From positions 434,001 through 498,000 of the forward strand of contig AP018040.2 in assembly GCA_002356435.2 (NCBI GenBank): 64,000 nucleotides of DNA, given 5' to 3'. This DNA is from Petrimonas sp. IBARAKI. GTDB lineage: Bacteria; Bacteroidota; Bacteroidia; Bacteroidales; Dysgonomonadaceae. Each line of letters begins with the position of its first letter. The stretch's first letter is position 1. Under the pieces are notes generated by a model. The model saw nothing but the letters and a program-made list of their open reading frames with translations, made no database searches and was not told the origin of the DNA. The position numbers and the translations under genes are program-made. Positions 12,434 to 13,502 of this stretch are shown piece after piece.

Positions 12434-12892
12434 ATGAGAAGATCTGCACCTGTTCTTTTTATCATTATCACCCTTCTGCTTTCGGTTGTTTCCTGTGTAG
12501 ATGAAGCATCCCGGTTTACGGTTCCCTATTCCCGGGTGTTTTTCCGGATCGATGTCAACGGGTTGGATTCCGATTTGACGTTTTTTGGCCACAAGACATT
12601 TGTTCAGGGAAGAACCGTTGGAGAACAAACCGGGTATGGAGGGTTGCTGGTTTTCAGAACAGCTGAAGGATCGATCTTCGCCTACGATCTTAGTTGTCCC
12701 CATGAAGATAACCGTGAGGTCAAGGTGCAGCCTGCCGACAACGGCAAGGCCGTCTGTCCCAAATGCGGCAGTGTGTTTGTTACAATGTACGGGTTAGGTT
12801 CGGTTGAGTCGGGGCCGTCCGCCGAACCGTTACAACGTTACACGGTGAGAAAGGATTTCGGGCGTGAAGGAGTTTTTGTGATCACAAATTGA
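12434..12892 (+). CDS. Rieske-like lipoprotein with a CxH...CxxC cluster motif
   Basis: Lipoprotein of 152 residues: signal peptide and lipobox LLLSVVSC with Cys21. The C-terminal half looks like a small Rieske domain. The first ligand motif is Cys88-Pro-His90 (DLSCPHED) and the second is Cys108-Pro-Lys-Cys111 (AVCPKCGSVF). In classical Rieske proteins the second motif is CxxH. Here the last His is replaced by Cys, which would give three Cys and one His if a [2Fe-2S] cluster is bound. A zinc-binding alternative is possible. Similar small lipoproteins occur in Bacteroidales to my knowledge; function is unknown. Confidence 0.78.
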   Translation: MRRSAPVLFIIITLLLSVVSCVDEASRFTVPYSRVFFRIDVNGLDSDLTFFGHKTFVQGRTVGEQTGYGGLLVFRTAEGSIFAYDLSCPHEDNREVKVQPADNGKAVCPKCGSVFVTMYGLGSVESGPSAEPLQRYTVRKDFGREGVFVITN

Positions 12893-12923
12893 TCCTGTGG
12901 GTGCAAATTTTTGGCGGATTCTC

Positions 12924-12954
12924 TTGTATTAATCAAGAAACATTTCTACATTTG
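12924..12954 (+). promoter_or_regulatory. Promoter of the tRNA-Gly/tRNA-Leu transcript
   Basis: A -33 TTG (12924-12926) and a -7 TACATTTG (12947-12954) are separated by 20 bases, an excellent match to the Bacteroidota promoter. Transcription should begin near 12960, just before the first 117-bp unit. No second such promoter is seen between the units and the complete tRNA-Gly, so the tRNA would be read through the array. Confidence 0.7.
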
Positions 12955-13055
12955 CAGTCGCTTTTAAAAATTGACAATTCATTGCGGAAATAGCTCAGTT
13001 GGTAGAGCATAACCTTGCCCCGGAAGGAAAAGATAACCCTAACCTTGGCAAGGAG

Positions 13056-13082
13056 CCGGTGAAGAGTTGCCGGAGTTTTTTT
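13056..13082 (+). terminator. Terminator-like hairpin in repeat unit 1
   Basis: CCGGT and GCCGG form a 5-bp stem (one G-U pair) around an 8-base loop, followed by AG and seven T. The stem is short, so termination may be partial. It would act on transcripts coming from the promoter at 12924. Confidence 0.5.
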
Positions 13083-13172
13083 AACAGAGAATAAATAATT
13101 GCGGAAATAGCTCAGTTGGTAGAGCACAACCTTGCCCCGGAAGGAAAAGATAACCCTAACCTTGGCAAGGAG

Positions 13173-13199
13173 CCGGTGAAGAGTTGCCGGAGTTTTTTT
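13173..13199 (+). terminator. Terminator-like hairpin in repeat unit 2
   Basis: Same hairpin and T-run as in unit 1, exactly 117 bases further on. Confidence 0.5.
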
Positions 13200-13289
13200 A
13201 ACAGAGAATAAATAATTGCGGAAATAGCTCAGTTGGTAGAGCATAACCTTGCCCCGGAAGGAAAAGATAACCCTAACCTTGGCAAGGAG

Positions 13290-13316
13290 CCGGTGAAGAG
13301 TTGCCGGAGTTTTTTT
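13290..13316 (+). terminator. Terminator-like hairpin in repeat unit 3
   Basis: Third copy of the hairpin and T-run, ending 18 bases before the complete tRNA-Gly. Confidence 0.5.
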
Positions 13317-13334
13317 AACAGAGAATAAATAATT

Positions 13335-13407
13335 GCGGAAATAGCTCAGTTGGTAGAGCATAACCTTGCCAAGGTTAGGGTCGCGAGTTCGAGTCTCGTT
13401 TTCCGCT
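13335..13407 (+). tRNA. tRNA-Gly (anticodon GCC)
   Basis: Full 73-base cloverleaf: acceptor GCGGAAA pairing with TTTCCGC, D stem GCTC/GAGC, anticodon stem TAACC/GGTTA with loop TTGCCAA (anticodon GCC), T stem GCGAG/CTCGT with TTCGAGT loop, discriminator T. CCA is not encoded. It is the fourth and only complete copy of the tRNA-like sequence here. Confidence 0.96.
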
Positions 13408-13415
13408 CAAGGTCT

Positions 13416-13499
13416 GCTCGGATGGTGGAATGGTAGACACGCAAGACTTAAAATCTTGTGACCATTACGGTTGTGCGGGTTCAAGTCCCGCTCCGAGTA
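13416..13499 (+). tRNA. tRNA-Leu (anticodon TAA)
   Basis: An 84-base class II tRNA with a long variable arm. The anticodon stem CAAGA/TCTTG encloses CTTAAAA (anticodon TAA). Acceptor GCTCGGA pairs with TCCGAGT, with a G-U at the end. CCA is not encoded. It lies 8 bases after tRNA-Gly and probably shares its transcript. Confidence 0.95.
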
Positions 13500-13502
13500 C
13501 TG

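Follow-up and report, generated by a model that had tools for sequence, protein, structure and literature searches.

Among the described systems, T-box riboswitches and the introns of pre-tRNAs come nearest in logic to the element reported here, and each fails a defining feature that we tested. In a T-box riboswitch, as here, a transcribed leader presents a GGC that can pair with the anticodon of tRNA-Gly(GCC) and has mutually exclusive alternative folds. The T-box, however, stands in front of an amino-acid gene, whereas the present leader precedes a tRNA gene, is complementary to that tRNA over its anticodon arm (14-18 nt) and shares a transcript with this target. A T-box would be followed by a gene for an aminoacyl-tRNA synthetase, for biosynthesis or for transport; the array here is followed by tRNA-Gly and tRNA-Leu, and although the antisense segment, called A below, holds GGC as a specifier codon would, this triplet sits inside a full antisense of the arm. 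Archaeal and eukaryotic pre-tRNA introns are alike in that another segment of the precursor is paired to the anticodon region, which makes the anticodon arm longer, but here the downstream tRNA is complete and uninterrupted (RF00005, 70.7 bits) and the element is tandem and upstream. Moreover, in place of the bulge-helix-bulge of the introns, the helix predicted between A and the tRNA runs unbroken over tRNA bases 36-37, both in the fold of the window sequence and in the consensus.

In bacterial pre-tRNAs, pairing of the 5' leader with the 3' RCCA is reported to hinder RNase P (PMC9433436). The likeness is that leader-tRNA pairing stands in the way of RNase P, which is only predicted in our case; the difference is that the leader described there pairs with the 3' RCCA, whereas here the anticodon arm is addressed by a dedicated, conserved segment. 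Tandem tRNA repeats and pseudogenes made by slippage are similar in being direct repeats in register with a copy number that varies between close strains (here three versus two); they differ in that our antisense segment coevolves with the gene and the body of the unit is not drifting freely. As for attenuators built on intrinsic terminators, a hairpin and T run before the gene are present in the units of the window, but conservation of the terminator in relatives is not seen (4 of 150 tails, plus five T runs after A).

To our knowledge, no bacterial tRNA gene has been described with a dedicated leader of this kind, antisense to the anticodon arm of the tRNA itself. The literature searches made here found no earlier description of the unit, in keeping with the earlier note, which knew of no described element of this form. 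The unit is probably an undescribed RNA element that stands before tRNA-Gly(GCC) in one to several copies across a range of Bacteroidales. Whatever its function, it is a recurring, coevolving RNA element for which the Rfam release that we searched has no family, perhaps owing to the resemblance of its first half to an ordinary tRNA repeat.

The array in front of tRNA-Gly(GCC)

The window, by which we mean the whole stretch of 64,000 nucleotides analysed, is positions 434001-498000 of contig C1 (AP018040.2) in the genome of Petrimonas sp. IBARAKI (G000), which consists of a single contig of 3.69 Mb. Three 117-nt units in tandem (12984-13100, 13101-13217 and 13218-13334) precede an intact tRNA-Gly(GCC) gene, each of them made up of a copy of the 5' half of the tRNA (H), a loop of about 20 nt, the antisense segment A and a tail. 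The features, by position in the window, are as follows.

12924-12954, + strand: candidate promoter before the array, with TTG at 12924-12926 and TACATTTG at 12947-12954
12984-13019, + strand: H of unit 1, a copy of tRNA-Gly(GCC) bases 1-36
13020-13035, + strand: loop of unit 1 between H and A; its AAGG is able to pair with CCUU of H or of A
13036-13053, + strand: A of unit 1, 18/18 complementary to 13364-13381 (anticodon arm plus variable loop); its 14-nt core is 13040-13053
13056-13082, + strand: terminator-like hairpin and T run of unit 1 (terminator scan), rare outside the window's genus
13101-13136, + strand: H of unit 2; C at 13127 differs
13153-13170, + strand: A of unit 2, 18/18 complementary to 13364-13381
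13173-13199, + strand: terminator-like hairpin and T run of unit 2 (terminator scan)
13218-13253, + strand: H of unit 3, a copy of tRNA-Gly(GCC) bases 1-36
13270-13287, + strand: A of unit 3, 18/18 complementary to 13364-13381
13290-13316, + strand: terminator-like hairpin and T run of unit 3 (terminator scan)
13335-13408, + strand: complete tRNA-Gly(GCC), with the target of A at 13364-13381 (ARAGORN; Rfam RF00005, 70.7 bits over 13335-13407)
13416-13500, + strand: tRNA-Leu(TAA), the next gene of the tRNA pair (ARAGORN, Rfam)

Coordinates and sequence agree with what the earlier note had described as three 117-bp units that differ at one base only, with the tRNA as the fourth repeat in register: units 1 and 3 are identical, and unit 2 departs from them at a single base, C at 13127, which corresponds to tRNA position 27. 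In each of the three units H equals bases 1-36 of tRNA-Gly(GCC), and the identity to the tRNA ends exactly after the third anticodon base, again as had been noticed. The remainder of the unit had been taken for a non-tRNA segment with a hairpin and T run. The hairpin and T run are indeed there, a 7-bp hairpin followed by seven T in every unit, but the description as non-tRNA was incomplete and overlooked an exact antisense of the anticodon arm: A is complementary at 18 of 18 positions to 13364-13381, that is, to tRNA bases 30-47, which comprise the anticodon arm and the variable loop. A terminator scan of a 1.3-kb stretch returned five terminator-like sites, the three of the array included, against a mean of 1.2 in shuffled sequences.

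The TTG and TACATTTG at 12924-12954 fit the -33/-7 promoter form of Bacteroidota, and a scan for sigma-70 promoters around the array gave no match. In 110 of 132 fetched loci, a -7 box of Bacteroidota type (TAnnTTTG) precedes the first unit fetched by no more than 110 nt; such a box is present inside only 3 of 133 tails. Because this box precedes the first unit and is rarely found within tails, the units appear to be part of a transcribed leader; the placing of all units behind a single promoter, proposed before, is thus borne out as far as promoter position can show it. At its gathering cut-offs Rfam recovered the two tRNAs and no T-box, and with E-values up to 1 over 12890-13430 it reported the tRNA and STnc560 (E 0.29, 17.1 bits against a cut-off of 55), once more without a T-box.

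On the minus strand, an open reading frame of 142 amino acids made of 39-aa repeats (12933-13361) runs antisense through the array; it stays open because the period of 117 is divisible by 3. A coding repeat on this strand was rejected, other arrays having periods such as 109, 111, 120 and 121.

The second tRNA-Gly(GCC) gene of the same genome (C1:1963107, locus L005) has no unit in front of it. In a second genome of the species (G739, locus L269) the array holds two units rather than three. An assembly artefact, one of the neutral explanations offered earlier, is refuted as a general explanation by the single-contig genome, the array of the conspecific G739 and the homologous arrays carried by relatives. 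The other, expansion by slippage, gains from the copy number of two versus three within one species, but taken alone it leaves the antisense that tracks the tRNA unexplained. Both units of L269 carry one identical base change in their loops, and this locus shows signs of a recent change in copy number together with homogenisation.

Recurrence and anatomy of the unit

A scan of one genome per species of bacteria and archaea returned at least 119 stretches with the unit pattern. Among the matches listed, 112 fall within Bacteroidales by name, and 7 are named only Bacteroidota, Bacteroidetes or Bacteroidia. Those listed include Bacteroidaceae, Tannerella, Paludibacter, Alistipes and Rikenellaceae, Odoribacter laneus, Porphyromonas and Mediterranea; Tannerella forsythia ATCC 43037 has two loci of two units each, and Odoribacter laneus has three units. 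The earlier note would have taken absence from all related genomes, together with the lack of any transcript, as refuting the element; the first half of this condition came out the other way. CCTTGCC and CCTTGGCAAG are set in the search pattern, which makes the conservation of these letters partly a matter of choice, and since only pattern and similarity searches were made, diverged units are undercounted. A few of the stretches are the same DNA twice, and related sequences do not count as independent events.

Within its range the element is rare and patchy. The exact core pattern occurs in 5 of 392 genomes drawn evenly across the order, and in a sample of the phylum (n=296) the window's own genome was the only match. 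In Dysgonomonadaceae, the family of the window, it was found in 40 of 88 genomes, or 39 after removal of G724, whose sole core-pattern match is not unit-like by its letters (the same holds for single matches in G756 and G768, which have others); most of these 39 carriers were called from a core-pattern match alone. In a unit search of 61 genomes, the query for which, as for the search of the window's genome, starts at 12985, one base inside unit 1, the unit core stood before 15 of 85 distinct tRNA-Gly(GCC) loci, all 15 in Dysgonomonadaceae among the matches listed. A phage element was considered and rejected, there being 0 exact matches to the unit pattern in viral contigs.

Across relatives both H and A are kept, and the loop from the anticodon to A has a mean length of 19.6 nt (range 14-29; 137 units). 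AAGG is present in 90 of these 137 loops, which are related to each other, as compared with a mean of 21 and a maximum of 36 in shuffled loops. An H reaching the anticodon and followed by A with at most one mismatch in 11 was seen in 134 of 135 units of the scan loci, the sole exception being the second unit of L136 with two mismatches, and in all 19 units whose loci had been chosen by whole-unit similarity or by their tRNA. Over its first seven bases H is identical to the tRNA in 107 of the 119 units tested, and in 78 of 87 last units. Tails are between 7 and 130 nt long (133 distinct tails) and, judged by eye, have little sequence in common between families.

Of the 144 Gly(GCC) tRNAs in the fetched DNA, many of them retrieved because of this very feature, 106 have an antisense of their own anticodon arm upstream. 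The same holds for 0 of 160 other tRNAs, a set that includes 44 from the window's genome, and on this count we rejected the idea that tRNAs in general have such an antisense. Some copy of their own 5' end is found upstream of 9 of the 160 other tRNAs. The nearest neighbour of a loop belongs to the same family in 82 of 102 cases, against a mean of 21.7 and a maximum of 39 in permutations. This clustering by family suggests that the element is old and has been passed on vertically for the most part, with some losses.

Several loci deserve separate mention. L024, L042 and L049 have shorter fragments of the tRNA-Gly 5' end, without A, directly before tRNA-Gly, like remnants or precursors of units, and similar 5'-end fragments occur in L062, L147 and L155. 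The tRNA-Gly loci L008 and L037 of genome G003 share tail sequence, as if units had been copied between loci. In a Tannerella MAG (L072:3117-3360), the tRNA-Gly behind the unit reads TCC instead of GCC and has a mismatch in the acceptor stem, which may reflect decay or recoding of the gene, or else a fault in the assembly.

Coevolution of the antisense and predicted folds

Three versions of the anticodon stem of tRNA-Gly(GCC) occur among the tested units, TAACC/GGTTA, CAACC/GGTTG and CGACC/GGTCG, and A follows them. The pairing test was limited to tRNA positions 41-43, where the search pattern imposes no letters. Across 137 distinct units followed by a tRNA, 404 of 411 cells were paired (395 Watson-Crick and 9 G-U), whereas the mean over 2000 shuffles was 354 and the highest count 365; of the 7 mismatched cells four are in L038 and the rest in L028, L034 and L036. 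The pairing and folding sets exclude duplicates, units that lack a tRNA downstream in the fetched DNA, and stretches that contain N or are too short. The covariation score of the helix between A and the tRNA, computed over 50 aligned loci, was 0.130, versus 0.069 for shuffled and at most 0.037 for slid controls. In nine units H is unlike the tRNA at positions 27-29, and there A equals the tRNA in 8 and H in none, L028 matching neither. Because A sides with the tRNA where H differs, it is fitted to the tRNA beyond the needs of pairing within the unit. A coevolves with the anticodon stem of the tRNA.

All folds were equilibrium predictions, computed without tertiary contacts of the tRNA or proteins. 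In a lone unit, CCUUGCC of H is predicted to pair with GGCAAGG of A, in a structure only modestly more stable than shuffled sequences (z -1.8). When the last unit was folded together with the tRNA (91 loci), A paired with the anticodon arm at a probability above 0.5 in 90, the acceptor strand of H took the 3' acceptor strand of the tRNA above 0.5 in 82, and the T arm was kept in 80; the CCUU region of H paired with the loop in 60 of the 91 minimum-energy folds. The RNAalifold consensus of 50 loci recovered the acceptor helix between H and the tRNA, the D arm of H, the helix of A with the tRNA and the T arm; the hairpin of H with the loop was not recovered, H bases 29-32 pairing with the variable region instead. 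With all three units of the window in the fold, the tRNA was in an antisense helix with A of unit 2, and unit 1 gave the acceptor strand.

In growing transcripts, pairing of A with H prevailed in 77 of 92 loci, and pairing with the tRNA in 14, when transcription had reached tRNA base 36; the latter exceeded 0.5 in 88 of 92 loci at base 39 and in 91 of 92 at full length. The hybrid was lower in energy by a mean of 11.1 kcal/mol (92 loci) and by 16.8 for the third unit of the window. Tertiary contacts of the tRNA would narrow this energy gap. After shuffling of A, the native anticodon stem of the tRNA returned in 188 of 276 folds, versus 0 of 92 natural ones, while shuffling of H or of the loop restored it in only 1 and 3 of 276. 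The native acceptor stem was back in only 16 of 276 folds with A shuffled, because H still competes for the acceptor strand. Of 67 unit-free loci, 53 showed the native acceptor stem and 26 the native anticodon stem at more than 0.5, so the folding method is imperfect for this tRNA. As modelled, AAGG of the loop could serve both folds.

A proposed leader switch and its rivals

We propose that the unit is a cis-acting leader element of pre-tRNA-Gly(GCC) with two exclusive folds that gates maturation of the tRNA, a reading to which we give a probability of roughly 45%. In the first state, A (YRACCUUGGCAAGG) would pair through GGCAAGG with CCUUGCC in the H of its own unit, AAGG of the loop could cover CCUU of A, and the tRNA would fold normally and be cut out by RNase P. 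In the second, A would pair with tRNA bases 30-43 over 13-18 bp, the acceptor strand of H would usually take the 3' acceptor strand of the tRNA, and CCUU of H would often pair with the loop, the product being a giant-armed, tRNA-shaped hybrid. Since the real 5' end of the tRNA would then lie outside the acceptor stem, normal 5' maturation by RNase P should fail. H would thus serve as a safety catch for A and as an alternative partner for the 3' half of the tRNA, A would be the trap, and AAGG of the loop may swap its partner with the state.

Such a leader may gate or time the supply of tRNA-Gly(GCC), with the number of units setting the strength, which could be tuned by slippage because copy number differs within a species (three units in G000, two in G739). 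We infer that both folds would form in cells, that RNase P would read them differently and that some signal would shift the balance between them. If this is true, the supply of one essential tRNA would be controlled by an RNA switch that is part of its precursor, the number of repeats would determine how strong the switch is, and the switch would span several families of Bacteroidales. With slightly lower probability, the element may represent a new class of riboregulator targeting a tRNA, in which a tandemly repeatable leader would toggle the nascent transcript between the native tRNA and a domain-swapped hybrid and copy number would tune supply in many Bacteroidales.

In the single-contig genomes G003 and G029, units precede each of the two tRNA-Gly(GCC) genes that were found, and folds taken literally would therefore starve the cell. 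The native tRNA must form there despite the trap, so that kinetics, proteins or a signal must partly favour the first state. Counting against a switch are also the patchy spread (5 of 392 genomes), the unit-free second tRNA-Gly(GCC) gene in the window's genome, and the consideration that A could track the tRNA through template switching at inverted repeats rather than through selection.

The last point belongs to the main rival of the leader switch, a non-adaptive origin that we hold to be unlikely: a slippage repeat of the tRNA 5' end would have received its antisense by template switching at the palindromic anticodon arm and been kept alike by gene conversion and inverted-repeat correction. 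The variable copy number within one species speaks for it, as do the leader sequence that recurs both ahead of the unit and ahead of the tRNA in several loci (e.g., L037 and L039), the shorter fragments without A before tRNA-Gly in L024, L042 and L049, and the identity of the first seven bases of H to those of the tRNA in 107 of 119 units, which points to homogenisation. It can also account for an A that tracks the tRNA, but with effort, and it fits less well with A following the tRNA where H does not. Direct repeats should delete cleanly, but units have been kept in several families, where loops group by family; no anticodon-reaching H without A was met in the 19 units from loci not chosen by the A pattern; tails diverge between lineages while A, part of which is fixed by the search pattern, stays; and A departs from Watson-Crick pairing in just the 9 G-U and 7 mismatched cells, four of the latter in one locus (L038).

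If RNase P instead freed the leader, the units might act in trans as an antisense or sponge for mature tRNA-Gly(GCC), for its halves or for a protein that binds tRNA-Gly. The complementarity of A to the anticodon loop and arm would suit this, tandem copies would raise the dose, and the terminator-like hairpin at the end of each window unit could give RNAs of about 100 nt; we nevertheless regard such a role as improbable, for every fetched unit with enough downstream sequence has a tRNA-Gly in the same orientation at most 600 nt away (with a changed anticodon in L072), no free-standing unit was met among the fetched loci, and A of a free unit is predicted to be locked by H. That the hybrid is itself the product, cut by RNase P at the 5' end of H to yield a giant-armed tRNA-like RNA that can be glycylated and used outside normal decoding, seems more improbable still. 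The predicted pairing of the acceptor strand of H with that of the tRNA (82 of 91 folds, with the T arm kept in 80) and the seven-base identity in 78 of 87 last units are what it would lead one to expect, but the last units of L012, L094, L142 and L172 keep A despite a decayed acceptor strand with 4-5 of 7 pairs. Least probable, in our view, is transcription attenuation before the tRNA, whether by separate intrinsic terminators, as in the three window units, L007, L036 and weakly L064, or by the hairpin of H with A followed by a T run, as in L110, L119, L126, L128 and L158: both forms together make up 9 of 150 distinct tails, and an A that matches the tRNA beyond H would not be needed.

Serial attenuation, which the earlier note had listed first among its possible meanings, is accordingly not the general function. 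The separate hairpin with T run was found in 4 of 150 distinct tails, namely those of L001, L007 and L036 in the window's genus and, weakly, of L064, and is mostly a trait of that genus; the T run directly after A adds 5 further tails. In the latter lineages the hairpin of H with A could itself act as an intrinsic terminator, since the T run comes right behind it, and where a T run follows the unit, termination may add a further layer to the proposed leader switch. The run in L110, L119, L126 and L128 begins two bases after A and has five or more T, with one C interrupting it in L128. Tails of L011, L036, L039 and L098, all in Dysgonomonadaceae, carry a second hairpin of CCGG type, which is accompanied by a T run in L036 only.
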